DNA from: Candidatus Schekmanbacteria bacterium
GTDB lineage: Bacteria; CSSED10-310; JACPHN01
Direction of reading: 5' to 3'
NCBI GenBank assembly: GCA_016188575.1
Contig: JACPHN010000010.1
Coordinates: forward strand, 1-64,000
DNA length: 64,000 bases
Shown here in pieces: positions 31,474-54,747 of this stretch; the stretch's first letter is position 1, and each line of letters opens with the position of its first letter. A program made the translations under genes and the position numbers. The notes below the pieces were generated by a model. The model was not told the DNA's origin, made no database searches, and saw only the letters and a list, made by a program, of their open reading frames with translations.

Positions 31474-32720
<1,247 letters not shown>

Positions 32721-36117: not shown

Positions 36118-37134
36118 ATGCAGGTGCGTATGGACCGGCTTCCGGCGATTTCCCTTTCGGCACATCACAACTACGTTGCGTTCTTCCTCACGCTCGCCTG
36201 CAATCTCAGGTGTGCGTACTGCATAAATCTCCACGACGGCGGCACGCGCTACGCCGTCGCCAAACGCAAGCACCTGGACACCGAAGAGTGGCTCCTGGCG
36301 ATAGATCGCCTGCGGCTTCGCGCCGATCTTCCCTTGACTCTGCAGGGCGGGGAGCCCACGCTGAGCCGGAGCTTCTTTGCGCTCGCGCAGCGCGCCGACC
36401 CCGCGCTCAAGATGGATCTTCTGACCAACATGGGCTTCGACGTCGAAGAGCTCATCCGCAACGTGCCGGTCTCCCGCTTCGTAAGGGAAGCGCCCTATGC
36501 CGCGATTCGCGTCACCTACCACCCCGGCCAGAACGACATCGACGCGATTATCGAGAAGACCGTCAGACTTGAGGCCGCCGGCTTCCGCGTCGGCATCTAC
36601 GGCATCCGCCATCCAGATCCGCACCTGCGATCCGAGCTGGAGCGCGCGGGCGACAAGTGTCTGGCGAGAGGTCTCGATTTTCGCTGGAAGGAGTTTCTCG
36701 GCTTGTGGCAAAACGCGCTTCACGGCACATACAAGTACGAAGGCGCAGTCAGCGGCCAGCCCTATCGCGGGTGCGAGTGCCGGACCACCGAGCTCATCGT
36801 CGACCCCGCGGGATACGTTTTCCGCTGCCACTCGGACCTCTACCGCGGTCGCGGTCCCATTGGCCACATCTTGGATCCGGGTTTCGACGCAGGTGCATTG
36901 GACGCGTTTCGGTACTGCGCATTTCTCGGCGACTGCAACCCGTGCGACGTCAAGGTCAAGACCAACCGGCTGCAAATCTTCGGTCACACCAGTGTGGAGA
37001 TCAGAAACGTTGATGCTGCCTACCTCACCTCCGCCACCGAGCGGGCGGAGGCGCACATCCGTCACCCCGGCACAGGCCGGTCCCCACTCTCACCCCGCGA
37101 GCGGGGGGAGACGGCTGACGGCGTCCACTCATGA
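36118..37134 (+). CDS. Radical SAM protein 1 of the glycan locus
   Basis: 338 residues. CNLRCAYC (about 28-35) is the CxxxCxxC cluster motif and LTLQGGEPTL the SAM-contact motif. The C-terminal part has clustered Cys (CECRTTELIVDPAGYVFRC, CAFLGDCNPC) typical of SPASM auxiliary-cluster domains. Substrate unknown. First gene of the 17-gene plus-strand operon; the start codon is ATG 36118 (an ATG at 36130 is also possible). A GC-rich hairpin repeat has been absorbed into the last about 20 codons, giving a non-conserved tail rich in Arg, Gly and Ser. The stop overlaps the next gene by 4 bases. Confidence 0.82.
   Translation: MQVRMDRLPAISLSAHHNYVAFFLTLACNLRCAYCINLHDGGTRYAVAKRKHLDTEEWLLAIDRLRLRADLPLTLQGGEPTLSRSFFALAQRADPALKMDLLTNMGFDVEELIRNVPVSRFVREAPYAAIRVTYHPGQNDIDAIIEKTVRLEAAGFRVGIYGIRHPDPHLRSELERAGDKCLARGLDFRWKEFLGLWQNALHGTYKYEGAVSGQPYRGCECRTTELIVDPAGYVFRCHSDLYRGRGPIGHILDPGFDAGALDAFRYCAFLGDCNPCDVKVKTNRLQIFGHTSVEIRNVDAAYLTSATERAEAHIRHPGTGRSPLSPRERGETADGVHS
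37065..37125. repeat. GC-rich hairpin repeat inside a coding region
   Basis: CCCCGC-GA-GCGGGG (37093-37106) with flanking CCCCACTCTCA and GGGGAGACGG. It is similar to the cores at 44665-44682 and 47458-47482. It forms the C-terminal codons of the upstream radical SAM gene. Confidence 0.6.
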
Positions 37135-38204
37135 CGGATTATCGGATCGACGGCCACAAGCTTCTCTGGCATCTCGATCGCGTCGCCGAGTGGCAGCGTC
37201 GGCGCACGATTACCCCCATCTACGTCGAAGTCTCCCCTGTCGCCTACTGTAACCACAAGTGCCTCTTCTGCGGCATCGACTTCGCGCAAGCCAGAGCCGT
37301 CCTGCTGCCCGTTGCCGGCTTCGCGAGGGCGCTCGGGGCCATGGGCAAAGCGGGCGTGCGCAGCATCATGTACGCTGGCGAGGGGGAGCCGCTGCTGCAC
37401 AGAAATTTTGCTGAGCTCGTCGCCAGAACCCGGGAATGCGGAATCGACGTGGCGCTGACGACCAATGGGATGCTCGGATCCGAAGCTGTCTGGCGGGAGC
37501 TCTTGCCGGCCATGACGTGGGTAAAGTTCAGCGTCGACGCGGGTTCAGCAGACGTCTACGCCCAGGTCCATGGCGTTGCCAGAAGCGCGTTTGACAAGAC
37601 TCTCGCCAGCATCGCCGCGGCCGTTGCCGAGCGGCAGCGGACGGCCCTGAAGACGACGATCGGCGTTCAGTTCGTCGCGCTCGACGCCAACTTCGGCGAT
37701 CTCGAGAACGCCATCGAGCGGTTCGCACCCATGGGCGTCGACTACTTCGTCATCAAACCGTTCTCGCGCCACCCGCAGATGTTGGCGCCAATCGACGTCG
37801 CGTATCCGCCGGAACGTATCGACTGGCTGCGGGAGGTGACCAGGAAGCATCAGAAGCGAACCGCCATGCGCGTCCTCTTGCGCGAGGAGGCGATGGAGCG
37901 TTACCAACAGCGGAGCTTCCAGTTCCAACACTGCCGCGCCTTGCCATTCTGGGGCTACATTACCGCGCGCGGCGACTTCTACACCTGCAGCGTCTTTCTC
38001 GGAGACCCCAGGTTTCGCGCCGGCAACGTGCTCTCCGATGACGTGGAGGAGATTCTCTTCGGCAAGGCGCGCAGCGATTCCATACACTTCGGGGAGCATG
38101 GCCTTCAGCTCGGCAGGGAGTGCCGGCTGAACTGCCGTATGGCGCGGGCAAACGAATTTCTGGAGGTCGTTGCCAACGAACCAGACCACGTAAATTTCAT
38201 ATGA
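37131..38204 (+). CDS. Radical SAM protein 2 of the glycan locus
   Basis: 357 residues. CNHKCLFC (about 41-48) is the cluster motif and IMYAGEGEPLLH the GEGEP-type SAM motif. The C-terminal half holds HCRALPFWGYITARGDFYTC, GNVL and ECRLNC, a SPASM-like arrangement. The start (ATGA) and stop (ATGA) both overlap neighbours by 4 bases, so it is translated stepwise between radical SAM protein 1 and the GT9 gene. Low identity by eye to the other radical SAM proteins here suggests different reactions rather than recent duplication. Confidence 0.83.
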   Translation: MTDYRIDGHKLLWHLDRVAEWQRRRTITPIYVEVSPVAYCNHKCLFCGIDFAQARAVLLPVAGFARALGAMGKAGVRSIMYAGEGEPLLHRNFAELVARTRECGIDVALTTNGMLGSEAVWRELLPAMTWVKFSVDAGSADVYAQVHGVARSAFDKTLASIAAAVAERQRTALKTTIGVQFVALDANFGDLENAIERFAPMGVDYFVIKPFSRHPQMLAPIDVAYPPERIDWLREVTRKHQKRTAMRVLLREEAMERYQQRSFQFQHCRALPFWGYITARGDFYTCSVFLGDPRFRAGNVLSDDVEEILFGKARSDSIHFGEHGLQLGRECRLNCRMARANEFLEVVANEPDHVNFI

Positions 38205-39151
38205 ACAGCAGACCCAAGATCCTCATTCTCAAGCTCGGCTATTCGGAGACGCTCGACCCGGAGATCGGACGGGTCGCTAGCCTCGGGGATGTCGTGCGCA
38301 CGACCCCCATTCTGGAAGCCCTCAGGGAACGACATCCCGGGGCGCATATCAGTTGGGTCGTGTCGGCGTCCGCAGAACCTCTCTTGCACGGTCACCGGCG
38401 GATCGATCGCATCCTGGTTTGGGACGAGTTCGTGCCGTTTCAGCTCATGCGCGAGAAGTTCGACGTCCTGGTGAACCTCGAGAAAATCCCGGGCGTGTGC
38501 GCGGTGGCGGACATGATCGACGCCTGGACCAAATATGGCTTCCGCTTCGACAGTTTGACTGGCAATTACCACGCCTATGAGCGCGGCCTGAACTTTATCG
38601 ACTACATCGCGCAGAAACGAGCCAATGGCAAGGCCAAGGCGTGCTGGCAGAAGGTCCTCATCGAGATGATGGGCGTGTCGTGGCGGGAACAACCGTATGA
38701 GATTGGCTATCGTCCGGCGACGGACGCGTCAGTCGACATCGGGCTGAATCACATGATCGGGCCAAAGTGGCCGTCCAAGGCCATGCCGCGGCCGCGGTGG
38801 GAGCAGCTCGAGCATCGGCTGCGTGGCGCCGGCTTCACGACAAGCTGGCAACAGGGGCTGGAAGACCTCTATCAGTACATGGACTGGATCAATTCCTGCC
38901 GGATCCTGGTGTCTCAGGACAGTCTCGGAGTCCACATCGCGCTGGCCCTGGGCAAGGCGGTGGTAGCGATGTTCGGCCCGACCGATGCCGAGGAGATTTT
39001 CTTTTACGGCCGAGGTCGAGCAATTCTCGCGGGGCGGGAGTGCGATCTGGCGCCGTGCTATGCCCCGCGCTGCCCGAGCGGCCGGCAGTGCATGCGCGAC
39101 GTCGACATCGACGAAGTGGTGACATCGGTACATGAGCTCGCACGACAGTAG
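38201..39151 (+). CDS. GT9 family glycosyltransferase (heptosyltransferase-like)
   Basis: 316 residues from ATG 38201, which overlaps the previous stop. VASLGDVVRTTPILEALRERHP is the N-terminal signature of the ADP-heptose:LPS heptosyltransferase family and SQDSLGVHIALALGKAVVAMFGPT is its C-terminal donor-site signature. It is slightly shorter than WaaF/WaaC and has a Cys-rich end (CDLAPCYAPRCPSGRQC). It probably transfers a heptose or related sugar in the surface glycan. The 3' end overlaps the transketolase gene by 20 bases. Confidence 0.85.
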   Translation: MNSRPKILILKLGYSETLDPEIGRVASLGDVVRTTPILEALRERHPGAHISWVVSASAEPLLHGHRRIDRILVWDEFVPFQLMREKFDVLVNLEKIPGVCAVADMIDAWTKYGFRFDSLTGNYHAYERGLNFIDYIAQKRANGKAKACWQKVLIEMMGVSWREQPYEIGYRPATDASVDIGLNHMIGPKWPSKAMPRPRWEQLEHRLRGAGFTTSWQQGLEDLYQYMDWINSCRILVSQDSLGVHIALALGKAVVAMFGPTDAEEIFFYGRGRAILAGRECDLAPCYAPRCPSGRQCMRDVDIDEVVTSVHELARQ

Positions 39152-39935
39152 CGGCGAAACGCGGCGGCGGGCGCTGGAGATCCGGCGGCGGATCATCGAC
39201 ATGGCGCACCGCTCGGGGAGCGCGCACGTCGGCTCGGCGCTTTCCTGTGCTGACATCCTGGCGGTGCTCTACTTCGAGGTGCTGCGCCTGCGCCCGTGGG
39301 AAAACCGTGATTACTTTGTCCTCAGCAAGGGCCACGCGGCGATGTGCCTGTACGCGGCACTCGATCTGTCCGGTATTCTCGAGCCCGGGCAGGCCGACTC
39401 CTACTTCCTCAACGACGGCGCACTGCCGGCACATCTGGACCGCTTTACCGGGCGTGGCATCGAGGTCTCGGCGGGTTCGCTGGGGCACGGGTTCAACGTC
39501 GCCCTCGGGCTCGCCTACGGCCTCAAGCTGCGGCGGAGCCCGCAGGCCGTCTACGCCTTGATCGGCGACGGAGAGTCGCAGGAAGGCTCTATCTGGGAAG
39601 GTGCCATGTTCGCCCCGAAGCTCGGCCTGGACAACGTCACTGTGTTTCTCGACTTCAATAACCTCCAGGGGTACGGTCGGGCGACGGAGCTTTGCAGCTT
39701 CGAGCCGGTCGCCGACAAGTGGCGCGCCTTCGGCTGGCATGCTGTCGACGTAGACGGCCACGATCACGAGGCCCTGTGCGACGCCATCGCCCAGCGCTCC
39801 GGCGGCCGGCCCAAGATGATCGTGGCGCGCACCGTCAAGGGCAAGGGTGTGTCGTTCATGGAGGACCAGCTCGTGTGGCACTACTACGTCGTCACCGCGG
39901 AGCTGAGGGCACGGGCCATGGAGGAGTTGCAGTGA
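39132..39935 (+). CDS. Split transketolase, N-terminal (ThDP-binding) subunit
   Basis: 267 residues. SGSAHVGSALSCADILAVLYF, LSKGHAAMCLYAAL and GSLGHGFNVALGLA match transketolase N-terminal subunits. ALIGDGESQEGSIWEGAMFA then FLDFNNLQGYG is the GDG...N diphosphate/metal motif. The reaction moves a two-carbon ketol unit between sugars. The position between a glycosyltransferase and a methyltransferase suggests a dedicated sugar-modifying role rather than central metabolism. The stop overlaps the start of the C-terminal subunit. Confidence 0.88.
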   Translation: MSSHDSSGETRRRALEIRRRIIDMAHRSGSAHVGSALSCADILAVLYFEVLRLRPWENRDYFVLSKGHAAMCLYAALDLSGILEPGQADSYFLNDGALPAHLDRFTGRGIEVSAGSLGHGFNVALGLAYGLKLRRSPQAVYALIGDGESQEGSIWEGAMFAPKLGLDNVTVFLDFNNLQGYGRATELCSFEPVADKWRAFGWHAVDVDGHDHEALCDAIAQRSGGRPKMIVARTVKGKGVSFMEDQLVWHYYVVTAELRARAMEELQ

Positions 39936-40876
39936 GGAGCTCCTTCATCGATGCGGTTATCGCCCTGAGCAAGGAGCGGCCCGAGGTCTTCATCTTGAGC
40001 GGGGACGCGGGCCTCGGCGTCTTCGACCAGTTCCAGCGCACGGACCCGCACCGGTTTCTGAACATGGGCGTGGCCGAGCAGAACATGGCGGGCTTTGCCG
40101 CCGGTCTCGCGATGGCGGGGTTTCGCGTGGTTCTCTACAATATCATCCCGTTCGTTCTCTACCGCTGCTACGAGCAGGTCCGCAACGATATCTGCTATCA
40201 GCGCCTGCCGGTCGTGCTGACGGGAATCGGCAGTGGTGTAACCTATGCCCCGGCGGGCATGACGCACTATTCGGTCGAGGACCTGGGGATTTGCCGAACC
40301 CTCCCCAATCTGACGGTGCTCTCACCGATCGATCCCGTGGAAGCGCGCGCCGCAGCCGCGTTCGCGCTGCAAGCCACCGCACCGGTTTACGTACGGCTGC
40401 CCAAACGCGGGGAACCCACATTTCACACGCATGGCGACATCGACATTACCCTGCCGCAGGTGCTGCAAGTGGGAGCGGAGGTGGCGCTACTGTTTCACGG
40501 GTCGGTCGCCGAAGAGGTCATCGCCGCGGTGGAGGCGCTCGGCGCCGAGGGAGCCTGCCCGCTGGTAATCGCCCTGCCCCTGCTCCAGCCGCTCGCCGAA
40601 GACGCCCTTGTTCCCCTCCTCGCCGAGATGCGGCACGTGGTCACGGTCGAAGAGCATTTCGTGGGGTGCGGTCTCGGCTCGCTCATCGCCAGGCTCGCCA
40701 CCCGCCATCACGTGGGCTGGCGCCTGCACACGCTCGGAATCGCTGACGGCTTCATTCACGAGATCCAGGACTGCAGACACCTGCGCCAGCGGCACGGGAT
40801 TTCCGCGGCGGGCATCGCCGCCACCGTCAGACGACTACTCGGAACCCGCGCGGCGGCGCGGCGAAAGGCAGTGTAA
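39932..40876 (+). CDS. Split transketolase, C-terminal subunit
   Basis: 314 residues from GTG 39932 (GTGA overlap), with GGAGGAG a few bases before. GDAGLGVF, then NMGVAEQNMAGFAAGLAMAG contains the catalytic Glu of the PYR domain. GVTYAPAGMTHYSVEDLG holds the His of the active site. It pairs with the preceding subunit to form an alpha2-beta2 enzyme like other split transketolases. The transketolase C-terminal domain (about 190-300) is complete. Confidence 0.87.
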   Translation: MRSSFIDAVIALSKERPEVFILSGDAGLGVFDQFQRTDPHRFLNMGVAEQNMAGFAAGLAMAGFRVVLYNIIPFVLYRCYEQVRNDICYQRLPVVLTGIGSGVTYAPAGMTHYSVEDLGICRTLPNLTVLSPIDPVEARAAAAFALQATAPVYVRLPKRGEPTFHTHGDIDITLPQVLQVGAEVALLFHGSVAEEVIAAVEALGAEGACPLVIALPLLQPLAEDALVPLLAEMRHVVTVEEHFVGCGLGSLIARLATRHHVGWRLHTLGIADGFIHEIQDCRHLRQRHGISAAGIAATVRRLLGTRAAARRKAV

Positions 40877-40878
40877 CC

Positions 40879-41541
40879 GTGGGCAGACTGCTAGACATCA
40901 TCAATCCGCTGCATCGCTCGACCTCCCGCGACTACCTTGCGCGCATGATGGATCGGAAGGCCGAGTGCATGCGCGTCGCACGCCAATACGGTCGGGACTT
41001 TTGGGATGGCGAGCGCCGGTACGGGTACGGCGGTTACGCCTACGACGGCCGCTGGCTCGCGGTCGCCGAACAACTCGCGGCGCAATTCGAGCTGCGTGAC
41101 GATGCCGCCGTTCTCGATGTCGGTTGCGGCAAGGGCTTTCTCCTCTACGAGCTCTCGCGGGTTCTTCCTCGCGCCCGCCTGTGTGGGTTCGACGTCTCCC
41201 CCTACGCCCTCGCCGCGGCAAAGACCGAAATCCGCCGGAGCCTTTTCGCCCATCGCGCCCAGGACCCTTTTCCGTTCGCGAATCAACAGTTCGATCTCGT
41301 CATTTCCATCACGACACTTCACAACTTGCAGGTGTTCGACCTCGCGCAGGCTTTTTCCGAGATCGACCGCGTCGGGAAAAACGGCTTCATCACGGTGGAG
41401 AGCTTCCGCACTGAGCAGGAGCTATTCAACCTGCAGTGTTGGGCGCTCACCTGCGAATCTTTCTACACACCGGAAGCCTGGGTGTGGCTCATGAATCATT
41501 TCGGATATCGCGGGGATTACGAGTTTATCTACTTCGAGTGA
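40879..41541 (+). CDS. Class I SAM methyltransferase
   Basis: 220 residues from GTG 40879, two bases after the transketolase stop. AAVLDVGCGKGFLLYELSRVLP is motif I and FDLVISITTLHNLQVFD the post-motif region. An unusual N-terminal helix pair (RDYLARMMDRKAECMRVARQYG) precedes the domain. It presumably methylates a sugar of the locus, possibly at the transketolase-derived branch. It is followed by the largest gap in the operon (56 bases). Confidence 0.82.
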   Translation: MGRLLDIINPLHRSTSRDYLARMMDRKAECMRVARQYGRDFWDGERRYGYGGYAYDGRWLAVAEQLAAQFELRDDAAVLDVGCGKGFLLYELSRVLPRARLCGFDVSPYALAAAKTEIRRSLFAHRAQDPFPFANQQFDLVISITTLHNLQVFDLAQAFSEIDRVGKNGFITVESFRTEQELFNLQCWALTCESFYTPEAWVWLMNHFGYRGDYEFIYFE

Positions 41542-41560: not shown

Positions 41561-41597
41561 GAACCAACCCGGAGGCAGGGGAGGACGAGAAGGGTCA

Positions 41598-42668
41598 ATG
41601 AGCTCCAGATATTCAACCATGAAGATCTTCCACTTCGCGGAGAAGCTGGATTCTCTGTTGCCGGAGGTCGCGGAGATTCAGCCACCGATTCATATCCGCA
41701 TCAAGCCGACCAATGTATGCAATCACCACTGTTGGTACTGCGCATATCGCACTCCAGAGCTGCAACTCGGGAAGGACATGGTGATTCGCGACCAGATTCC
41801 GCGGGAAAAAATGGCGGAGATCGTCGCGGACGTGGCCGCGCTGGGCGTGAAGGCGGTGACGTTCAGCGGCGGCGGCGACCCTTTCGTCTACCCCTATCTG
41901 TTGGAGACCGCCCGCCGGCTCGCCGATAGCCCGGTGCGCTTCGCCTCGCTCACAAATGGCGCCCGCCTGTGTGGCGAGGTGGCCGAGGTGTTCGCGCATA
42001 ATGCGACCTGGGTGCGGGTTTCGATCGACGGCTGGGATGACGAAAGCTACGCAAAGTACCGCAACACCAAGATCGGCGAATTCTCCAAAGTCGTGCAGAA
42101 CATCGAGGCCTTCGCCAGGCTCGGCGGTGGTTGCCACCTCGGTGTCTCCGTCATCGTCGATCGCGGCAACGCCGGCCACGTTCTTGAGCTTGTCCGCCGC
42201 CTCAAGGATGCCGGCGTGGCGAGCGCCAAGGTCTCACCGTGCATCGTCAGCAACGATAGAAGCGAGACGAACGCCTACCACGCAAACATTTCCTCGATCG
42301 TTGAAGAACAGATCAGGCGCGCCAAGGAGGAGCTGGCGGGGGACGGATTCGACATCCACAATGCCTATCACGCGCAGCTCACGACGTTCGCCAAAGAATA
42401 CTCGTGGTGCCCATACCTGCAAATTCTGCCCGTCATCGGCGCGGACCTGAACGTTTATTCATGCCAGGACAAGGCGTACAATCTCGACAGCGGGTTGATC
42501 GGATCCATCAAGGATCGGCGGTTCGCAGACTTTTGGATGGCTGACAAGAGCAAGTTCTTCAGGATCGACCCTTCCAGGGACTGTAATCACCACTGTGTGG
42601 CTCACGCCAAGAATCAGTCCGTTTTCGGCTATCTGGAGGCCGACCCGGACCACTTGGGGTTCGTATGA
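41598..42668 (+). CDS. Radical SAM protein 3 of the glycan locus
   Basis: 356 residues from ATG 41598. CNHHCWYC (about 41-48) is the cluster motif and VTFSGGGDPFVYP a GGGDP variant of the SAM motif. WVRVSIDGWDDESYAKYR follows the barrel. The C-terminus has CPYLQILPVIGADLNVYSC and DCNHHC, a SPASM-like region. Substrate unknown. The stop overlaps the CBS-nucleotidyltransferase by 4 bases, tying it to nucleotide-sugar formation. Confidence 0.83.
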   Translation: MSSRYSTMKIFHFAEKLDSLLPEVAEIQPPIHIRIKPTNVCNHHCWYCAYRTPELQLGKDMVIRDQIPREKMAEIVADVAALGVKAVTFSGGGDPFVYPYLLETARRLADSPVRFASLTNGARLCGEVAEVFAHNATWVRVSIDGWDDESYAKYRNTKIGEFSKVVQNIEAFARLGGGCHLGVSVIVDRGNAGHVLELVRRLKDAGVASAKVSPCIVSNDRSETNAYHANISSIVEEQIRRAKEELAGDGFDIHNAYHAQLTTFAKEYSWCPYLQILPVIGADLNVYSCQDKAYNLDSGLIGSIKDRRFADFWMADKSKFFRIDPSRDCNHHCVAHAKNQSVFGYLEADPDHLGFV

Positions 42669-43729
42669 TACTCGATTCCGCTGCCGGTGACATCGCGGAG
42701 CTGCTGAGCAAGATTTGCATCGCGCCCGAGGCGACGATTCGCGACGCCATGGAGGCGATTGCGCGCGGCGGTTTGCAGATCAGCCTGGTCGTCGACGGCG
42801 GGCGGCGGCTCGTTGGCACGGTCACCGACGGCGACATCCGCGTGGCGCTCCTCGCGGACGCCCGGATGAACGATCCTATCGGCCCGCGCTGCAACCGCGC
42901 CTACACCTGGGTGCACCGCGGCACCAGCCGCGCCGAGATCATCGACCTGATGAAGGCGCGATCGATCAATCAGGTTCCGATCCTGGACGACGACCATCGG
43001 CTCGTCGGACTGCAGCATCTGCAGCAACTCATCGGCATCCGCAAGAAGCCCAACTGGGCGGTGATCATGGCCGGGGGGCGCGGCCAACGCCTGCAGCCGC
43101 TTACTGACACCACTCCGAAACCCATGCTCAGGGTGGCCGGCCGGCCGATCCTGGAGCGGCTCATCCTGCACTTGGTGGGCTATGGAGTCACGCGAATCTT
43201 TCTTGCCGTGAGCTACAAGGCGGATGTGATCGAGAGCTACTTCGGCGCCGGCGAGCGGTTTGGGTGCCACCTTCGCTACCTGAAGGAGCAGCGGCCGCTG
43301 GGCACGGGCGGCGGGCTCGCGCTCCTGCCGGAAGCGCCCGAGCACCCGTTGCTGGTGCTGAACGGAGATCTCATCACCCAGTTCGACGTGGAAGCGCTGC
43401 TCGAGTTTCACCGTGCCCAGGGCGCCGCGGCAACGGTTGGGGTCGGCGAATACCAGCACCTGGTGCCGTACGGTGTCCTCACACTGGAAGACGGGCGCGT
43501 CAGCGGCATCGCGGAGAAACCGCTGCTGGTCCTTGCGGTCAACGCGGGAATCTACGTCCTGGAACCGCATCTGCTGGCGCGAATCCCCGCAGATCGCGCC
43601 ATGGGACTTCCGGACGTGCTTGCGGACTGCCTCGACCGGCGCGAGCGCGTGGCCGGCTATCGCATCTCGGGTGATTGGATGGATCTCGGAACCAAGGCAC
43701 AGCTCGAGCTGGCGCGGGGGGCGGTGTGA
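42665..43729 (+). CDS. ptmE: PtmE-type CBS-domain sugar-phosphate nucleotidyltransferase
   Basis: 354 residues. Two CBS repeats (about 10-125, GTVTDGDIRVALLAD, INQVPILDDDHRLVGLQ) precede a nucleotidyltransferase domain: VIMAGGRGQRLQPLT, TTPKPMLRVAGRP, VLNGDLITQFD, VNAGIYVLEP, WMDLGT. This order matches Campylobacter PtmE, which makes GDP-glucosamine in the legionaminic acid pathway, and MNT1-like enzymes. The CBS pair probably senses adenosine ligands to regulate activity. It begins within the stop of radical SAM protein 3 and ends within the start of the fusion enzyme. Confidence 0.8.
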   Translation: MILDSAAGDIAELLSKICIAPEATIRDAMEAIARGGLQISLVVDGGRRLVGTVTDGDIRVALLADARMNDPIGPRCNRAYTWVHRGTSRAEIIDLMKARSINQVPILDDDHRLVGLQHLQQLIGIRKKPNWAVIMAGGRGQRLQPLTDTTPKPMLRVAGRPILERLILHLVGYGVTRIFLAVSYKADVIESYFGAGERFGCHLRYLKEQRPLGTGGGLALLPEAPEHPLLVLNGDLITQFDVEALLEFHRAQGAAATVGVGEYQHLVPYGVLTLEDGRVSGIAEKPLLVLAVNAGIYVLEPHLLARIPADRAMGLPDVLADCLDRRERVAGYRISGDWMDLGTKAQLELARGAV

Positions 43730-46403: not shown

Positions 46404-47515
46404 CGCTATACACCGACAACCTGAGCGGCACGGCGCTGCAGGCAGAGCTCGACGACATTCGCCGCCGCCTGGGGCTCGCGGCGCTCGATGAGGCTCTGCG
46501 TTTTCCCCAGTACTTCCAGATCGAGACGGTCCGCGTATGCAACGCTCGTTGCCCGTTTTGCGCCGTTGCGCAGTGGGACAAGACCGTACCCGTCATGCCC
46601 GACCCGCTCTTCGAGAGGATCGCCGCGGAGCTCGCAGAGCACGCCGATTGGGTTCGCGTCGTCATGGTGCAGCGCGCGGGGGAGCCGCTCATGGACAAGA
46701 AGATCGTGGCGCGGGTAAAGCGCCTCAAGGACGCGGGAATCAGGCGCGTGACCATGTCCACCAACGCGGCGCTGCTGACCGAAGCCAAAGCGGTCGCGCT
46801 GCTCGAGGCGGGGCTGGACGAGATCATGTTTTCGATCGACTCGATTGAGCGGGAAGAATACGAAAAGCTGCGCGTGCGCCTCAGCTTCGACACGGTCATG
46901 GCAAACATCCGGCGCTTCTTCGCGCTGCGGAACCGACTCCGCCCAGATTTTCTGATTCGCGTCCGCGGAGTATGTTTCCTTGATCCGGCAAGCTCCCACG
47001 ATCGCCCGCGCATCTCGCGGTGGCTGCACGCGTGGGACGATCAGCGCCTCCCCCACGACCGGATCTACTTCAAACGGCCGCACAACTGGGGCAATCAGCA
47101 TGCCTTCGACGGCGTCCCGCCGTATGAGGAGGTTTTTCACCCGTGCGTGCTGCCATGGTCGACGCTACACGTCACGACCATGGGCCTCGTTCCGCTCTGC
47201 CCCCAGGACTTCGACGCCAGGATGAGCTTGGGCGACGTCAATCGCGACAGCATCGCTGCGGTGTGGCGCGGCGAGGGATTCGCCCGGGTCAGACGCCTAC
47301 ACCGGGAGGGAAAGCGCGGGGAGATCTCGTTTTGTCGCGGCTGCCGCCTCTTCGACGAGGACGCGCACCTCGAGAAGAAGCTTGATGCGCTCGCCGACGA
47401 GAGCGGAAGCGACGCCCCGCTCCCCGCAGGCGCGCGAGTGGGAAGCGACCTCTCTCTCCCTCCCCCCGCAAGCGGGGGAGGGCCAGGGTGGGGGGACCGC
47501 AATGAAGCTACCTGA
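46400..47515 (+). CDS. Radical SAM/SPASM protein 4 of the glycan locus
   Basis: 371 residues. CNARCPFC (about 48-55) is the cluster motif and VMVQRAGEPLMD the SAM-contact segment. The C-terminus has CVLPWSTLHVTTMGLVPLC, SLGDVNRDSIAAVWRG and FCRGC, a SPASM domain with Cys ligands for extra clusters. The final about 25 residues (LPPPASGGGPGWG) come from an inserted hairpin repeat. The stop lies inside the LegI gene start region (14-base overlap). The reaction is unknown; SPASM enzymes often act on peptides, but several act on sugars. Confidence 0.84.
   Translation: MTLYTDNLSGTALQAELDDIRRRLGLAALDEALRFPQYFQIETVRVCNARCPFCAVAQWDKTVPVMPDPLFERIAAELAEHADWVRVVMVQRAGEPLMDKKIVARVKRLKDAGIRRVTMSTNAALLTEAKAVALLEAGLDEIMFSIDSIEREEYEKLRVRLSFDTVMANIRRFFALRNRLRPDFLIRVRGVCFLDPASSHDRPRISRWLHAWDDQRLPHDRIYFKRPHNWGNQHAFDGVPPYEEVFHPCVLPWSTLHVTTMGLVPLCPQDFDARMSLGDVNRDSIAAVWRGEGFARVRRLHREGKRGEISFCRGCRLFDEDAHLEKKLDALADESGSDAPLPAGARVGSDLSLPPPASGGGPGWGDRNEAT
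47445..47500. repeat. GC-rich hairpin repeat inside a coding region
   Basis: CCCTCCCCC-CGCAAGCG-GGGGAGGG (47458-47482) followed by CCAGGGTGGGGGG. It supplies the last codons of radical SAM protein 4 and the G-rich ribosome-binding region of the LegI gene. Confidence 0.65.
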
Positions 47516-48587
47516 AGCTCGTGTCTTTGTCATCGCGGAGGGCGGCGTCAACCACAACGGCTCGACCGAGATCGGGCTGGCGCTCATCGACGCCGCCAGA
47601 GCCGCCGGCGCCGATGCCATCAAGTTTCAGACCTTCCGCGCCGACCGCCTGGTTACCGGCCGGGCACCTCTCGCCGCCTACCAGCGTGCCGGCGCTAGCC
47701 TGGCTCGGGACCAGCGCGATATGCTCACCCGCCTCGAGCTGTCAGAAGAGCAGCACGAACGGTTCCGCGAGCACTGCGAGGAGGTAGGAATCGAGCTCCT
47801 GTCGACACCGTTTGACGAGATCAGCCTGCGCTACCTCGTGGGTCTCGGCGTGCCGCGGATCAAGGTCGCCTCCGGCGAGATCACCAACGGGCCGCTGCTG
47901 CTGCAGGCGGGCCGAACGGGAAAGCCCGTGATTCTCTCTACCGGCATGGCCACGCTCGGAGAAGTAGAGGAGGCGCTGGCAGTGATCGCGTTTGGGCGCC
48001 TGGAGGCGCGGTCGTGGCCGACCCCGGAACGACTGCGCGCGGTCCAGGCGAGCGCCGCAGCCCGGGCGGCGCTGGCCGACGGCGTCACGCTGCTCCACTG
48101 CACCACGGCCTACCCGGCCCCCTGGCGCAGCGTCAACCTGCGGGCAATGGATACGCTGCGGTCTGCCTTCGGCCTGCCCGTGGGGTACTCCGACCACACC
48201 ACCGGAATCGCCGTGGCCGTCGCCGCTGTCGCGCGCGGCGCCGTCATCGTCGAGAAACACGTCACGCTCGACAAGCAGATGCCGGGTCCTGACCATGCGG
48301 CGTCGATCTCGCCCGCGGAGCTGGCCGAGCTGGTGAACGCGGTCCGGGCGGTAGAAGAGGCACTGGGATCCGAAAATAAGACCCCGCAGGCCGCGGAGCT
48401 GGAAAACACCGCGGTGGTCCGGAAGTGCCTGGTGGCGGCGCGATCGATCACCGCCGGCGAGCTGCTTTCCGAGGAAAACGTCGTGGCCAAGCGGCCGGCG
48501 CGGGGCCTGTCGCCCATGGCGATGTGGCGCTTGATCGGCCGGCCGGCGCGGCGCAGCTATCAGCTCGACGAGCCACTGGAGGAATGA
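47502..48587 (+). CDS. legI: Nonulosonic acid synthase (NeuB/LegI family)
   Basis: 361 residues from ATG 47502. FVIAEGGVNHNGSTEIG, IKFQTFRAD, LSTPFD, IKVASGEITNG, STGMATLGEVEEAL, HCTTAYPAP, GYSDHTTG and VEKHVTLDKQMPGPDHAAS are the full set of NeuB-family motifs. A C-terminal SAF/antifreeze-like domain (KCLVAARSITAGELLSEENVVAKRPARGLSP) follows. It condenses a six-carbon amino sugar with phosphoenolpyruvate to make a nine-carbon sugar. Given LegB and LegC, legionaminic acid or a variant is the likely product. Stop overlaps the next start (TGATG). Confidence 0.9.
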   Translation: MKLPEARVFVIAEGGVNHNGSTEIGLALIDAARAAGADAIKFQTFRADRLVTGRAPLAAYQRAGASLARDQRDMLTRLELSEEQHERFREHCEEVGIELLSTPFDEISLRYLVGLGVPRIKVASGEITNGPLLLQAGRTGKPVILSTGMATLGEVEEALAVIAFGRLEARSWPTPERLRAVQASAAARAALADGVTLLHCTTAYPAPWRSVNLRAMDTLRSAFGLPVGYSDHTTGIAVAVAAVARGAVIVEKHVTLDKQMPGPDHAASISPAELAELVNAVRAVEEALGSENKTPQAAELENTAVVRKCLVAARSITAGELLSEENVVAKRPARGLSPMAMWRLIGRPARRSYQLDEPLEE

Positions 48588-50128
48588 TGGACCGCGAGCA
48601 GCGTTTCCTGATCGTCCGCTCCGCGGGGCAGCCGTGCCTGCGCGCGCTGCTCGACCTCATCGCCCGGCCCGGCCGCAGCATCCACGTTCTCAGTCCCAAT
48701 CCGGTAGAGGATCCCCGCATCGATGCGGTCTTCCCCATCCTGCGCATCACCCGGCGAAGCGTCAGCCTCGGCGGTACGCTCCCGGATTCGCGGCGGTACG
48801 ACAAGGTGTTCCTCTTGCTTGACTTGCGCCTGTACACGCTGCTCAGCTACCGCAAGTTCTCGCGCTTCGTCGAACAAAGTCGCCTCGGCGATTGCGTGCA
48901 CGTCTTCGGTCACTGGAACGGAAAGCTGCTCGGCAGGCAGAGCTCGCAACTGACCGCCGCCTTCCGCACTGCCCGGCGGCGGGCCGTAGCAGCGCTCGGC
49001 TACGGCCTTCGCCTGCTGCTGGCGGTGGTCCGACCCATCACTCACGTGCGGCTGTGCGACATCCGCGTCGAGCGTATCGGGCACCTCGCGGCCAACAACG
49101 AGAGCTTCCTGCGCAAGGCATACCTGGAAAAGGACCGGGGTCCCTTCGTGCTCGTCTCCCGGCGCAGCGACAGGATCGCCAATCGCCAGCTTTTCACCAT
49201 GCTCGCGCGGCGCGTTCCCGTCGTCCGCAGCTCCTTGCTTGCTGACATCATCACCTCCCCGACGTTCCGCCGCTCGCCCTCCATGGTCGACCTGTGGAGC
49301 TCCTTTCGCAGCACCGTTGAGTGCCGCGAGCTCGACGCGGCGCCGCCACAGCTCCGCTGGCTGCCGCAAGAGGAGTCGCAGGGTGCCGCGATCTTGGCAG
49401 AAATGGGGGTGGACTCATGGTTCGCGTGCTTTCACACACGCGACGACGCGTACCTCAATGCCACATTCCCGGACGTCGACTGGTGCTATCACGACTTCCG
49501 CGATGCGGACATTCACGACTACCTGCCGGCGATGCGCCGTGTCGCCGCGCTCGGCGGCTACGCGATTCGCGTCGGCAGCATCGTCAAGGAGCCGCTGCGC
49601 CACGACAATCATCCGCGTATCATCGACTATTCCACGAGCCGGTTTCAGTCCGACTTCATGGACGTGTATCTGGCGGCGAAATGCGCCTACTTCGTCGGCT
49701 CAACCGCGGGCCTATACTTGATCGCCACCATTTTCAACGTCCCGCTGGTGGTGTGTAACGGCGTTTTCGGGCATACCGGCCTGAGCTCGCGCGAGCTGAT
49801 GGTGCCGAAAAACATTTGGAGCGTGGCCGAAAATCGACTCCTGACCTTTGGTGAGGTATATCGCAGCGGCGCAAGCCATATCCTCAGTTGGCAGGAATTC
49901 AGGCGGCATGAGCTGCGCCCGGTCGCCAACACCCCTGACGACATCGCCGCGGCCACGGAAGAGCTGCACGAGAGGGCGTTTGGCACCGCGCGCTACAGCG
50001 AAGACGATGAACTGCGGCAGCAGCGGTTTCGGGACATCTATCGGCGGAGCTCGAATCAGTACTACGAGTATCCGTCGCGAATTGGGCGAGGCTTCCTGTC
50101 CACATATGAGCACTTGCTGGTAGATTGA
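48587..50128 (+). CDS. TIGR04372-like glycosyltransferase
   Basis: 513 residues; ATG 48587 is chosen over 48584 because GGAGG sits 4 bases before it. FVLVSRRSDR, CFHTRDDAYL, DFRDADIHDYLPAMRRVAALGGYAIRVGS and YFVGSTAGLYLIATIFNVPLVVCNGV resemble the TIGR04372 family of putative glycosyltransferases often found in LPS or capsule loci with nonulosonic acid genes. The latter motif resembles the donor-binding region of GT-B folds. The N-terminal about 180 residues are less familiar. Confidence 0.72.
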   Translation: MDREQRFLIVRSAGQPCLRALLDLIARPGRSIHVLSPNPVEDPRIDAVFPILRITRRSVSLGGTLPDSRRYDKVFLLLDLRLYTLLSYRKFSRFVEQSRLGDCVHVFGHWNGKLLGRQSSQLTAAFRTARRRAVAALGYGLRLLLAVVRPITHVRLCDIRVERIGHLAANNESFLRKAYLEKDRGPFVLVSRRSDRIANRQLFTMLARRVPVVRSSLLADIITSPTFRRSPSMVDLWSSFRSTVECRELDAAPPQLRWLPQEESQGAAILAEMGVDSWFACFHTRDDAYLNATFPDVDWCYHDFRDADIHDYLPAMRRVAALGGYAIRVGSIVKEPLRHDNHPRIIDYSTSRFQSDFMDVYLAAKCAYFVGSTAGLYLIATIFNVPLVVCNGVFGHTGLSSRELMVPKNIWSVAENRLLTFGEVYRSGASHILSWQEFRRHELRPVANTPDDIAAATEELHERAFGTARYSEDDELRQQRFRDIYRRSSNQYYEYPSRIGRGFLSTYEHLLVD

Positions 50129-50138
50129 TGGAGGAACA

Positions 50139-51179
50139 ATGAGATTCTTGGTAGTCGGCCTTGGTTCAATGGGTGCTCGCCGTATCCGCAATCTCCAGTT
50201 CCTGCAAGCGGGAACGATTGTGGGGATGGACCCGCGCGAGGACCGGCGGCAGCGAGCAGCCGAGAAGTATGACGTCGTGTCCTGGGCGACTCTGGAAGAG
50301 GCGATGGCCGTGCGGCCGGACGCCATCATCATTTCGACGCCCCCAGACTTTCACGATCACTATATGTGGCGAGCCGCGGAGCTTGGCGTCAGCTTCTTTT
50401 GCGAGGCGAGCGTCGAGGCGCGCGGTCGCGGCGAGCTTGCGCGGCTTTGTGAAGAGCGCGGCATTCTGGCGGCACCGTCCTTTACGTTTCGCTGCCACCC
50501 CCAGATCAAGCGCCTCAAGCACCTCGTCGACAGCGGCGCTATCGGGCGCGTCGTTGCGTTCACGTACCAGTCCGGCCAGTACCTCCCGGACTGGCACCCC
50601 TGGGAACACATCCGGGACTACTACGTCAGCAAGCGAGAAACCGGGGCGTGCCGTGAGATGGTGCCCTTCGAGCTGTTGTGGCTGTGCTGGATCATGGGCG
50701 AGGTCACGGCGGTAAGCTGTTTCAAGGACAAGCTGGCCGGTCTCGAGGCCGATATCGACGACGTCTATCAGCTCTTGCTTCGATTCGAGTCCGGCGCGCT
50801 CGGCCACCTGTTGGTGGACGTCGTGGCCCGGACCCCGGTGCGCGTCTGCCGATTCACCGGAGACCGGGGCGTGCTCGAGTGGGACGCCGGGCGCAAGCAG
50901 GTGCGGCTGTTTCGCGCCGGCGCCGGCGCCTGGGAAGAGTATTCCGACGAAGAGCAGGTCGTCGAGCCGGGCTACGTCAACGCGGAGAACATGTACATCG
51001 AGGAAATGCGGCACTTTCTCGCGGCCTTGCAAGGCAAGAGCACCTATCCGTTCTCGCTCCGGGAGGAAGAGCGCATCCTGAGCCTCCTGCAAGCGGCAGA
51101 GGCGAGCGCCCAGCAGGGCAGGCACGTGCGCTCGCATGGCGCCCGTCGTGCGGAAGACAGGGGCACGAGCCATGTCTGA
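50139..51179 (+). CDS. Gfo/Idh/MocA family oxidoreductase (glycan locus)
   Basis: 346 residues. FLVVGLGSMGARRIRNLQFL is the NAD(P)-binding loop. IIISTPPDFHDHYMWRAAELGV and FCEASVEARG stand where EKP-type proteins have their catalytic Lys; that Lys is absent, so the reaction may differ. The C-terminal domain (VCRFTGDRGVLEWD) is normal. Oxidoreductases of this group occur in many legionaminic acid clusters. GGAGGA lies upstream of the ATG. Overlaps the next gene by 8 bases. Confidence 0.83.
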   Translation: MRFLVVGLGSMGARRIRNLQFLQAGTIVGMDPREDRRQRAAEKYDVVSWATLEEAMAVRPDAIIISTPPDFHDHYMWRAAELGVSFFCEASVEARGRGELARLCEERGILAAPSFTFRCHPQIKRLKHLVDSGAIGRVVAFTYQSGQYLPDWHPWEHIRDYYVSKRETGACREMVPFELLWLCWIMGEVTAVSCFKDKLAGLEADIDDVYQLLLRFESGALGHLLVDVVARTPVRVCRFTGDRGVLEWDAGRKQVRLFRAGAGAWEEYSDEEQVVEPGYVNAENMYIEEMRHFLAALQGKSTYPFSLREEERILSLLQAAEASAQQGRHVRSHGARRAEDRGTSHV

Positions 51180-51942
51180 CTACATGTCTTCGGCGGAGTA
51201 CCTCGACTATCTCGTCGCCAACTGTGGGGTCCGCGGAATTGACGACAAGCGCCCTGTCGAGGTTTGCAAGCGCCCCGACGTCGATATCGTCCTGCAGTAC
51301 TGCGCGTGGCTCGAGCTGCAACCGGAAGACAAGGTGCTCGAGGTCGGATGTGGCATCGGTCGCATCCTCAAGGAGCTGCACGAGAGCTTCCGGGTGCGCC
51401 CCTATGGTACCGACAAGTTCCCCGCGGCCGTTGCGGCCGCCCGGGAGCGCGTAGGGGAGATTTGCGCGGAGATCGCGTGCGCTCCGGTGGAAGCACTGCC
51501 TTTTTCAGATCGCTCGTTTGACAAGATCCTGTGCTGGGGAGTTTTCGACTTGACCGATCAGGCGCGCGCCTTGCAAGAGATGGCGCGAGTGCTGATGCCC
51601 GGTGGCAAGCTCTTGCTCACTGGGAAGAACGATACGTTCGCCCTCGATGACCAGGAAGCCCGCATCGCCGAGGAGGCATCGGTGCGCAAGGGCATTCCCA
51701 ACCACTACACCGACTTCGCCGCGCTGCTTGCCTGGAGCACCACGCTCGGGCTGCGGTGCGAGCGCGCGCGCTACTTCCACAGGCGGGGCGACTTCATGCA
51801 GGGAATCGGCGCGGAGGAGCGGCCGGCACGCTTCTACGAGTACGCAGTGCTGCTGCAGCGCCTACCGGCCGCCAGTCCGACGGTGACGGCGCTGCCGGTG
51901 ATCGGGCGACTGCGCAGTCGGGGAGATGACGATCTTCGTTGA
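51172..51942 (+). CDS. Class I SAM methyltransferase
   Basis: 256 residues from ATG 51172. DKVLEVGCGIGRILKELHESF is motif I; FDKILCWGVFDLTDQARALQEMARVLMPGGKLLLTGKND completes the fold of Methyltransf_11 proteins. The C-terminal part (RARYFHRRGDFMQGIG) may bind the sugar acceptor. It overlaps the oxidoreductase by 8 bases and lies 18 bases before the mosaic gene. Confidence 0.82.
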   Translation: MSDYMSSAEYLDYLVANCGVRGIDDKRPVEVCKRPDVDIVLQYCAWLELQPEDKVLEVGCGIGRILKELHESFRVRPYGTDKFPAAVAAARERVGEICAEIACAPVEALPFSDRSFDKILCWGVFDLTDQARALQEMARVLMPGGKLLLTGKNDTFALDDQEARIAEEASVRKGIPNHYTDFAALLAWSTTLGLRCERARYFHRRGDFMQGIGAEERPARFYEYAVLLQRLPAASPTVTALPVIGRLRSRGDDDLR

Positions 51943-51960
51943 GCGGCGCGAAGGGTCCTC

Positions 51961-53490
51961 GTGAATAGAACGGTGCTCGGGAAGCGAGTGTCGAAAGACA
52001 CGCAATCGGTTATCTTGTACACAATGATGTACGATAACTATCCCTACTATTACAAACGCTTTCTATTTTACAAATTGGCATGTAATACTGAAATAAACAA
52101 CGCGATTATTATTTACGATTCAAAGCTGGATTGGATTCCGGAAAAGAAGACGCTGGCAGGATGGGCAGATCGCGTTGAGATCCTGGACTACCACGAGCTT
52201 GTGCGAGCGCGGATAGATTTCTCGAAAGATCATTTTCTCGACGATTCTATATATTTTCTCCGCAACAGGCTGAAGGAGTGTTTGCCCAGAATCGACTTCA
52301 TATATGCTGTATGGTTTCACCTGAGTCCATTCGATAAGATGATTCTGGAATGTTTGTATGATATAAATCCAGATTCCGTTGTCATTCAGCTAGAAGACGG
52401 ATTGCATGATTACATGTACTATCTTCACGGCGACCTTTTCCCCGAGCCGGACATATACAAAGAGTCACATTTTGTCAACACCGAATATCGCAAGTACTTC
52501 TCAAAGTCACTCCCGCCATTTGACAAACGTCGTTTCTATTACGCGCTCACGTTGCCGTCGCTCATCACACGCGAGGAGTCCCAGCAAATACCGATCTTGG
52601 AAGTATGCGACGTGGAGCGCGCACGTGACGGCGAACCGCTTCGAGACGCCGTGATCATCGTCCCGCAGACGCGGCAGGAGCTGCTCTGGCTCGCCGAGCT
52701 CGCGGCGGGTCCCGAGCTAGACCGCTATCCACGACGGATGGTGTCACTCAACTGCTTGGGCTTTCGGTACCGCGAAATCCAGGTGCTGCCAATCGCCCAC
52801 CTCATGAGGTCGGCGCGCCACATCGGAGTGGCGCCAGCCAATGACCGCGCTCACCGGCTGCTCGACCTTGTGCGCGAGGTCGACGCGTCTCTGTTGTCGC
52901 GGATAGCAGTGTATGATCGGGACCCCACCAAGGCGTTCGTGCAGAAGCTGCACCCGTATGAGGAAGTGCAGGCGGCGCAGCACGAGCTGTTCCTGGTCAG
53001 CTCACCGCTGTTCGGGGCCGAGATCGCCGCCGACCTCCGCGCGAGAGGCGTGGGCGATGACATCCTCTATCACGTTGAAGATGAGGATTTGACCTATCTT
53101 GGCGCGCTGGCGCGACTCCCCCGGACGGTATCCGGCAGCGCCCGCGCGGCACGAACGGCGTTGGCGTTCGTGGGAGAGCACGTTGCCCACGAGTTTTTCA
53201 ACGACCCATTGCTGGTCGATCAGGGCTACACGTTCTTCAACTCGCTCGTGCCCATGGAGTTTCTCCCGCTGGAGTCCTGCTGTTTGCTGTCGGGCCATTC
53301 GAGTGTGCTGTTCCGCAAGCGCTGGTCGCGGCACGGCGTTGAGGCCATCGCGGTCGTCCCGACGGACGGCTGCGATGTCGCCCACTGGAAAACTCCGTAT
53401 CGTTACAGTCAGGCGCAGGTCGATGCCATCGCGGATGTCATGGGCCGCACCGGCGTGCGTCTGGTCAGGCGCCCCTATCGGACGGGCTGA
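51961..53490 (+). CDS. Unrecognised, possibly glycosyltransferase-like, mosaic composition
   Basis: 509 residues from GTG 51961. The first about 200 codons are AT-rich (YDNYPYYYKRFLFYKLACNT, EINNAIIIYDSKLDW); the last about 300 have the genome's high G+C. The break is near 52560. LEDGLHDYMYYLHG is reminiscent of the acidic motif of polysialyl- and sialyltransferase-like families, and LPLESCCLLSGHSSVLFR of donor-site serines, but I cannot assign a family. The context, after the CMP-nonulosonate genes, suits a transferase of the finished sugar. Confidence 0.6.
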   Translation: MNRTVLGKRVSKDTQSVILYTMMYDNYPYYYKRFLFYKLACNTEINNAIIIYDSKLDWIPEKKTLAGWADRVEILDYHELVRARIDFSKDHFLDDSIYFLRNRLKECLPRIDFIYAVWFHLSPFDKMILECLYDINPDSVVIQLEDGLHDYMYYLHGDLFPEPDIYKESHFVNTEYRKYFSKSLPPFDKRRFYYALTLPSLITREESQQIPILEVCDVERARDGEPLRDAVIIVPQTRQELLWLAELAAGPELDRYPRRMVSLNCLGFRYREIQVLPIAHLMRSARHIGVAPANDRAHRLLDLVREVDASLLSRIAVYDRDPTKAFVQKLHPYEEVQAAQHELFLVSSPLFGAEIAADLRARGVGDDILYHVEDEDLTYLGALARLPRTVSGSARAARTALAFVGEHVAHEFFNDPLLVDQGYTFFNSLVPMEFLPLESCCLLSGHSSVLFRKRWSRHGVEAIAVVPTDGCDVAHWKTPYRYSQAQVDAIADVMGRTGVRLVRRPYRTG

Positions 53491-53532
53491 TGCCGGCCGG
53501 CGCGGCGACGCCACCATCGAAACGAGGTTAGC

Positions 53533-54747
53533 ATGACAGGCCGTGTTTTCGTCTGCCCCGTAATCAACGCTCTCGGTCCCGCGCGCGATCCCCGTCACCC
53601 TGACCTGCTCGCCACCTGGCCGGACGTCGACCGCGGTCTCGCCCGCTATTTCGAGCGCTCCTTTCGCGATGAGCTCCGGGATTCTGTCGGGCGGCCGGTG
53701 CAGCTTTCGTGGTTTCCGGTGAGCTGGTCAGGCTTCTCGTCAAATCCCGTGAATCGCGATTTCGGGTGGTTTACCGTGTATGACCACCTGGTCGAGACCT
53801 GGGGGGAGGCCATGGCCAGGGCGGGCGACGGCATCTACTGGATGTACAACCACCCCGATCGATCGGGCGTCGGCAATGTCTGGGGGCTCGACTGGTTTCA
53901 CAACTGCCACTACCTCAACGTCCTGAACCGGCTGCTTCTGGAGCGCGCCTATTTCCCTGGAGCGGTGCAGATCCCCACCGCAAACTCGGATTCCACGAAT
54001 TTCACCGAGGCGTTCTTCCCCTTCGAGCTCAGCAACCGCAACGCGAAGCACATCAACTGGAATCGCATCGAGGCGGATGGGCGGCGCCTGTCGGAGGTGC
54101 TCCAGTGGGCGTCGGCGCCCGACGACTGGCAGCCGTACAGGCCGAGTCACGAGGACCACCAGCGGCCGGGTCGCATGAACCACTGGATGTTTCGGATCGT
54201 TGACCTCAGAACGGACGATATTGCGATACCGGGGCGCGAGTGGGAGCGCGCTTTCGCCCAGGCCGCAGCGGGCGCCGACGTGGTCGTGGCCGCGTACGAG
54301 CACGACTTTCGCGACCGCGCGCACGTCGTCCAGGAGGTCATGCTGAAACCCATCGCACAGGCGGCGCAGCGTTTCCCCGAGGTGCGGATCGTCAACGCGA
54401 CTTTTCAGGAGGCGGCCCTCGCGATCACGGGGGGAGATGCGCGCCGGCCTGGATTCTCGCTTGAGCGGCGCCAGGGTTACGATCTGATCCGCGCGGACAC
54501 GCCGCTGTTCGGCGTCAGCCCCTACGTGGCGATCCGCGACGACGCCACTGGCGTCATCCGGCAGGACTTCCCCGTCCCCTGTGGAAAGCAGGCCTGGGCG
54601 CTGCCTGCGGACGCGCTACCGGAGCGAGGTCTCGCCGGCATTGCGGGGTTCGCGGCTGGCGGACGGCAGGGGGTGGCCCGCTTTCTGATCGAGAGCGGGA
54701 GCGAACCGGTCACCGCACCGTGCCCGGCGCAGGTGATTCCGCTCTGA
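53533..54747 (+). CDS. Unrecognised enzyme-like protein, last gene of the glycan operon
   Basis: 404 residues; GAGG precedes the ATG. VFVCPVINALGPARDPRHPDLL opens a probable alpha/beta barrel, with repeated His, Asp and Trp motifs (WMYNHPDRSGVGNVWGLDWFHNCHY, VVVAAYEHDFRDRAHVV). The pattern is reminiscent of the deacetylase/glycoside hydrolase barrel superfamily (WbmS-like), which could trim or deacetylate the glycan; this is a guess. No signal peptide. The gene ends at 54747, directly against an IS5-family remnant. Confidence 0.6.
   Translation: MTGRVFVCPVINALGPARDPRHPDLLATWPDVDRGLARYFERSFRDELRDSVGRPVQLSWFPVSWSGFSSNPVNRDFGWFTVYDHLVETWGEAMARAGDGIYWMYNHPDRSGVGNVWGLDWFHNCHYLNVLNRLLLERAYFPGAVQIPTANSDSTNFTEAFFPFELSNRNAKHINWNRIEADGRRLSEVLQWASAPDDWQPYRPSHEDHQRPGRMNHWMFRIVDLRTDDIAIPGREWERAFAQAAAGADVVVAAYEHDFRDRAHVVQEVMLKPIAQAAQRFPEVRIVNATFQEAALAITGGDARRPGFSLERRQGYDLIRADTPLFGVSPYVAIRDDATGVIRQDFPVPCGKQAWALPADALPERGLAGIAGFAAGGRQGVARFLIESGSEPVTAPCPAQVIPL

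Follow-up and report, generated by a model that had tools for sequence, protein, structure and literature searches.

Two sugar-precursor pathways probably interleaved in one surface-glycan island of a Candidatus Schekmanbacteria bacterium

Introduction

DesII and BlsE are radical S-adenosylmethionine (SAM) enzymes that act on nucleotide-linked sugars, and radical SAM chemistry on sugars is known mainly from antibiotic pathways (BtrN, DesII and BlsE). Here we describe a 17-gene operon from a Candidatus Schekmanbacteria bacterium (assembly GCA_016188575.1, contig JACPHN010000010.1) at positions 36118-54747 of the 64,000 nucleotides analysed, hereafter the window, which combines four radical SAM genes (RS1 to RS4) and a split transketolase (TktN and TktC) with genes of a legionaminic-type (Leg) pathway. 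BtrN, from butirosin biosynthesis, is a radical SAM dehydrogenase of the twitch type, and the twitch domain of characterised members holds one auxiliary [4Fe-4S] cluster (PMC9012708). The cytidine monophosphate (CMP)-legionaminic acid pathway of Campylobacter jejuni uses precursors linked to guanosine diphosphate (Schoenhofen 2009, as cited in PMC7439481). In the octose pathway of lincomycin a transaldolase yields octulose-8-phosphate, from which a nucleoside diphosphate (NDP)-octose is then made (PMC12945683), and in Geobacter sulfurreducens GSU2085-GSU2087 are annotated as hldE, GSU2086 (its product assigned to a sugar biosynthesis operon) and gmhA (PMC5585712).

Our preferred reading of the locus, to which we give a probability of roughly two in three, is that two sugar-precursor pathways are interleaved in one surface-glycan island. 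The first would be a Leg-type pathway comprising the PtmE-like protein, LegB, LegC, NeuD/LegH, LegG, NeuB/LegI and a CMP-transferase; a Maf-type protein may place its product on flagellin. The second would be an independent radical SAM/transketolase cassette, RS1-RS2-GT9-TktN-TktC-MT1-RS3 together with DegT-WbuC-RS4, which is common to distant phyla and whose product is probably an unusual surface sugar (Table 1). What was observed directly comprises the gene families, their co-conservation and order, the integrity of the radical SAM and auxiliary Cys motifs, and the conserved transketolase residues.

Results and Discussion

In relatives the radical SAM genes travel with the split transketolase, the methyltransferase MT1 and the WbuC-type cupin, and rarely with NeuB. 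Searching GTDB genomes with RS3 yielded 62 loci (46-64% identity) from Planctomycetota, Nitrospirota, Omnitrophota, Campylobacterota, Pseudomonadota, Chlorobiota, Elusimicrobiota, SAR324 and archaea; no further strong match was found in the window's own family (one genome) and phylum (eight genomes). Neighbours were counted within 10 kb on either side of RS3, and the counts are lower bounds since loci end at contig ends. MT1 was present in 42 of the 62 loci, TktN and TktC in 32 each, WbuC in 12 and RS4 in 10, and RS2 was found near RS3 in 41 loci at >80 bits, some of these perhaps being paralogous radical SAM genes (29 after family clustering). NeuB fell within the same interval in two loci and PtmE in one. 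RS4 tracks RS3 rather than NeuB: in each of the eight genomes that carry an RS4 match better than 1e-50, 0.3 to 11 kb separate RS4 from RS3. The initial annotation had suggested searching other genomes for the same gene order, and for the cassette that order was recovered: by de novo clustering, two of the compared loci (numbered with the prefix L), L041 and L056, keep the window's arrangement RS1-RS2-GT9-TktN-TktC-(MT)-RS3, and an Omnitrophota locus (L030) reads RS2-TktN-TktC-MT1-RS3-DegT-WbuC-RS4-B12-radical-SAM-...-GT4372. Identity to the window's proteins reaches 57% for RS1 in L041, 58-61% for GT9 in L018, L022 and L041, and 63% for MT1 near RS3. The window therefore looks like the cassette with PtmE, RmlD and NeuB interleaved. 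Several loci also encode a B12-binding radical SAM protein after RS4 (e.g. L030:13678-15552) that is absent from the window.

The operon had initially been read as possibly a single route in which the radical SAM enzymes modify a nonulosonic acid or glycan. Coupling of these enzymes to the Leg pathway was not supported by the relatives, in which the radical SAM genes largely fail to co-occur with Leg genes: NeuB is not within 10 kb in 60 of the 62 RS3 loci. The complete genome of Candidatus Brocadia pituitae speaks against it too. There, about 17 kb encodes homologues of GT9 (60% identity), TktN (63%), TktC (57%), MT1 (63%), RS3 (61%), RS4 (39%) and RS1 (47%), along with a WbuC-type gene and an RS2 protein (39% to an RS2 relative), placing all four radical SAM homologues in one locus of a genome from which NeuB (TIGR03569) is absent. 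Among 30 RS3 carrier genomes searched in full (TIGR03569, E <= 1e-30), five lacked NeuB, four of them drafts and the fifth Ca. Brocadia pituitae. We consider it unlikely, then, that the radical SAM enzymes act on a legionaminic-type acid or its precursors to give a novel nonulosonic acid from one 17-gene pathway. In its favour, RS3 is translationally coupled to PtmE and RS4 to NeuB, the same island carries a full Leg set, NeuB is mildly enriched near RS3, and locus L037 brings RS3 and NeuB together; the enrichment and L037 are weighed below. A single radical SAM/legionaminic pathway was rejected on the neighbourhoods and the NeuB-free complete genome.

TktN and TktC share the two-gene architecture of the Carboxydothermus hydrogenoformans split transketolase, which provides the best PDB match for both halves (6yak for TktN, 5e-66; 6yaj for TktC, 4.5e-42). 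The adjacent halves carry the thiamine diphosphate (ThDP) GDG/N motif, the donor-site His residues (H32, H68 and H250 of TktN, nearly invariant) and the Glu of the Pyr domain, as expected of a split transketolase. Unlike 6yaj, TktC, which is also close to DXS, has the loop YAPAGMTHY in place of GEDGASHQ, with similar loops in its close relatives, a change that points to an acceptor probably different from that of the 6yak/6yaj enzyme. In the Planctomycetota loci L031, L044 and L078 the position of the split transketolase between RS2 and RS3 is occupied by an acetolactate-synthase-like ThDP protein. Judged from this replacement and from the sister variant described next, the step common to all is likely to be a ThDP-catalysed transfer of a C2 unit, and the product is likely an NDP-sugar.

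Some or all of the GSU2086-family, HldE-like and GmhA-like genes stand ahead of the cassette in L021, L024, L027, L030, L035, L043, L046 and L077. This sister variant, which we read from its gene families as a route from a ketose phosphate to an NDP-sugar, recalls G. sulfurreducens in that several relatives place the GSU2086-HldE-GmhA trio before RS2-Tkt-MT1-RS3; the window, unlike G. sulfurreducens, lacks the trio. It also resembles the lincomycin octose route in its logic, GmhA-like and HldE-like steps coming after an enzyme devoted to forming a C-C bond in a sugar, but that enzyme is of transketolase rather than transaldolase type and radical SAM proteins stand where lincomycin has its own modifying enzymes, so this is a resemblance only. 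The GSU2086-family protein, which has an ArgZ-like C-terminal domain, recurs near HldE/GmhA-like genes that precede the cassette (L077:2860-3852, L035, L021, L024, L027, L043 and L078).

Since the sister variant has GmhA-like and HldE-like genes immediately upstream and GT9 belongs to the heptosyltransferase family, the cassette might lead to a modified heptose or a conventional lipopolysaccharide-core sugar, the transketolase merely supplying sedoheptulose-7-phosphate and the radical SAM enzymes acting late. This we regard as distinctly unlikely: sedoheptulose-7-phosphate normally comes from the housekeeping transketolase, the window-type variant lacks GmhA and HldE, and an acetolactate-synthase-like protein replaces the transketolase in some loci. 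A heptose pathway within this island was rejected, GmhA and HldE homologues lying on other contigs of the genome only.

As initially annotated, the four radical SAM proteins are mutually dissimilar: RS2, RS3 and RS4 share 24-29% identity with one another, and RS1 matches none of the three significantly. RS2, RS3 and RS4 exceed the PF04055 cut-off of 29.5 bits (67-74) and retain the CX3CX2C core, and RS1 falls slightly under it (28.3). Their tails, described earlier as SPASM-like, are indeed Cys-rich but of the shorter twitch type in RS2, RS3 and RS4, where four conserved Cys follow the core with twitch spacing (268/286/331/335, 271/289/329/333 and 249/267/312/315, respectively); RS1 has a different tail, and all 10 of its Cys are conserved across five sequences. 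The nearest solved relative of RS4 by sequence is BtrN (1.9e-14), with which its core Cys (47/51/54) and four auxiliary Cys, invariant in nine sequences, align, and as for BtrN an aminotransferase gene is nearby. RS4 differs from BtrN in its low overall identity and in its setting, a surface-sugar locus rather than an aminocyclitol antibiotic cluster, and its activity is a prediction. DesII and BlsE were the top solved relatives of RS2 in profile searches of PDB (5e-17 and 9e-15) and the best Foldseek matches of the RS3 AlphaFold model (predicted local distance difference test, pLDDT, 91.6), at about 17-20% identity over the RS3 alignments; RS2 and RS3 nevertheless belong to conserved families apart from those enzymes.

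No NCBIfam maturase model was passed by any of the four proteins (best, RS4 with 81 bits to TIGR04317, cut-off 380), and the operon, with no gap above 81 nt, has no room for a precursor peptide gene. Sequence and model comparisons thus suggest that RS2, RS3 and RS4 are probably carbohydrate-type radical SAM enzymes and not peptide maturases, which agrees with the sugar-directed radical chemistry proposed initially. A role of the radical SAM proteins in ribosomal-peptide maturation, or a cassette product that is a small molecule separate from the glycan, is very improbable given also the sugar-specific neighbours in well-covered loci and the BtrN-like RS4, even though twitch/SPASM tails are common in peptide maturases, the RS2 fold matches SuiB and the RS3 sequence search also matches SkfB. 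The peptide-maturase reading was rejected on the NCBIfam cut-offs and the lack of precursor space.

If two pathways are indeed interleaved here, the split transketolase would extend a sugar or sugar phosphate by a ketol unit of two carbons, giving a higher-carbon or branched sugar. With the 5'-deoxyadenosyl radical, RS2 and RS3 would oxidise specific carbons or remove their oxygen, and the BtrN-like RS4 would convert an alcohol to a ketone that the DegT domain could then aminate. MT1 might methylate the sugar, and GT9 would transfer the finished product.

Several points weigh against this reading. We infer the substrates and product of the cassette and can only guess at the order in which its steps occur. 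The RmlD-DegT fusion may be part of either pathway. Foldseek did not separate sugar from peptide enzymes for the RS2 model (pLDDT 90.9), ranking the peptide enzyme SuiB first and DesII about equal. This island has neither GmhA nor HldE. Of the 30 carrier genomes, 8 have NeuB no more than 30 kb from RS3, where about 1.25 would be expected, and locus L037 brings RS3, PtmE-like, NeuB and Gfo/Idh genes together in 8 kb, so that a joint product is possible in some lineages. The same enrichment implies that both pathways often reside in the same surface-glycan island.

A quick RS3 tree mixes phyla (18 label changes, minimum 13), which suggests horizontal transfer of RS3 between phyla, with the proviso that bins may hold foreign contigs. 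By GC content the cassette is not sharply foreign, although MT1 and RS3 are lower (0.59-0.60) than most neighbours.

All 17 open reading frames were confirmed, and gene families were assigned from Pfam and NCBIfam profile scores relative to the cut-off of each model (Table 1). The tight coupling claimed in the initial annotation held: nearly all junctions abut or overlap, most by 4 nt (RS1/RS2, RS2/GT9, TktN/TktC, RS3/PtmE, PtmE/DegT, DegT/WbuC and WbuC/RS4), the largest intergenic gap being the 81 nt given above. Its PtmE-, LegI-, SDR-aminotransferase- (here an RmlD-DegT fusion), WbuC- and glycosyltransferase-type genes were likewise recovered by the profiles. Its inventory was incomplete, having overlooked the split transketolase (39132-40876), the divergent operon with LegB, LegC and the CMP-transferase (29280-35911), the Maf-type gene at 27497 and the downstream LegG and NeuD, and the legionaminic-type pathway it recognised is correspondingly fuller.

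By profile assignment the Leg-type gene set of this island is full, although LegB and LegC fall under their equivalog cut-offs. NeuB passes TIGR03569 (438 bits) and reaches only 256 bits against the PseI model (cut-off 340). The island parallels C. jejuni in having counterparts of PtmE, LegG, LegI/NeuB, the CMP-transferase and an acetyltransferase, putative ones of LegB and LegC, and a Maf-type protein; unlike in C. jejuni, the genes are spread over three operons and interleaved with the cassette. The Maf-type protein, for which the NCBIfam scan gave no match, is a probable flagellin nonulosonate transferase, and the genome has five flagellin matches.

Table 1. Genes of the operon and of the surrounding island, with supporting profile matches
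Feature	Position	Strand	Support
RS1, radical SAM protein, distinct Cys-rich tail	36118..37134	+	PF04055 28.3 bits, cut-off 29.5
RS2, twitch-type radical SAM protein	37131..38204	+	PF04055 67 bits
GT9, heptosyltransferase-family glycosyltransferase	38201..39151	+	PF01075 29.9 bits
TktN, N-terminal half of split transketolase	39132..39935	+	PF00456 118 bits
TktC, C-terminal half of split transketolase	39932..40876	+	PF02779 and PF02780
MT1, class I SAM methyltransferase	40879..41541	+	PF13847 among Pfam matches
RS3, twitch-type radical SAM protein, cassette hallmark	41598..42668	+	PF04055 74 bits
PtmE-like sugar-1-phosphate nucleotidyltransferase, two CBS domains (Leg module)	42665..43729	+	PF00483 114 bits, PF00571 x2
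RmlD-type reductase fused to DegT aminotransferase	43726..45837	+	PF04321 129 bits, PF01041 303 bits
WbuC-type cupin	45834..46403	+	TIGR04366 124 bits, cut-off 42
RS4, BtrN-like twitch radical SAM protein	46400..47515	+	PF04055 71 bits, PF13186 42 bits
NeuB/LegI nonulosonic acid synthase	47502..48587	+	TIGR03569 438 bits, cut-off 400
GT4372, TIGR04372-family glycosyltransferase	48587..50128	+	197 bits, cut-off 45
Gfo/Idh/MocA oxidoreductase	50139..51179	+	PF22725, PF01408
Second SAM methyltransferase	51172..51942	+	PF08241 67 bits
Protein without family	52024..53490	+	similar stretch downstream (L080) beside another GT4372
Protein without family	53533..54747	+	
GT2 glycosyltransferase, first gene of divergent operon	34688..35911	-	PF00535 86 bits
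GT2 glycosyltransferase	33480..34694	-	PF00535 77.5 bits
CMP-sugar synthetase, LegF/NeuA-like	32740..33507	-	PF02348 40.8 bits, cut-off 22.6
Class III aminotransferase	31470..32720	-	PF00202 138 bits
LegB-like 4,6-dehydratase	30469..31473	-	best NCBIfam TIGR04180 377 bits, under cut-off 475
LegC-like aminotransferase	29280..30431	-	best NCBIfam TIGR04181 335 bits, under cut-off 420
Maf-type protein (MptE-like domain)	27497..29269	+	PF01973 99 bits
NeuD/LegH-type acetyltransferase, window edge	63126..63773	-	TIGR03570 183 bits, cut-off 161
LegG/NeuC hydrolysing epimerase, beyond window	C46:66274-67344		TIGR03568 425 bits, cut-off 236

Past the window, the same 79.7-kb contig (C46) encodes NeuD/LegH-type acetyltransferases, LegG/NeuC, another DegT protein, a fifth radical SAM protein and a TnpB-type gene. 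The fifth radical SAM gene is related to RS2 and lies beside the TnpB/OrfB_IS605-type gene, which is inside the glycan island (L080:11420-12619, minus strand, corresponding to C46:71420-72619); two more radical SAM matches are on another contig of the genome (C56:57544-58098 and C56:86058-86513). A pyruvate-kinase barrel protein of 320 aa (PF00224 140 bits) is encoded in the downstream Leg operon near LegG (L080:7484-8446, minus strand, corresponding to C46:67484-68446), and because NeuB uses phosphoenolpyruvate a link between the two is conceivable. Pfam and NCBIfam scans gave no match for the last two proteins of the operon; the first of them has a related stretch at L080:4303-4725 beside a second TIGR04372-like glycosyltransferase gene, so that a functional pair is possible. 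Directly after the operon, at 55159-59139 on the minus strand, lies a large CheB-CheR-PAS-histidine kinase-receiver fusion.

Conclusions

In the open literature, whose coverage omits most subscription papers and makes absence weak evidence, we found nothing joining legionaminic acid with radical SAM enzymes and no description of a cassette joining transketolase, radical SAM enzymes and surface polysaccharide; the cassette is apparently undescribed so far, and we regard it as the more interesting finding at this locus. The chances seem to us evenly balanced that the cassette encodes a pathway shared by horizontal transfer, whose split transketolase and several carbohydrate-type radical SAM enzymes jointly make surface sugars of a new class, higher-carbon or branched and radical-modified, in bacteria of many phyla and in some archaea. 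A compact, testable gene set is available in the complete genome of Ca. Brocadia pituitae, and it separates the cassette from the question of legionaminic acid. If such a pathway exists, radical SAM chemistry on sugars and transketolase chain building would extend to surface glycans in Planctomycetota, Nitrospirota, Omnitrophota, Campylobacterota, Pseudomonadota and archaea, and unknown monosaccharides would be widespread in environmental microbes.

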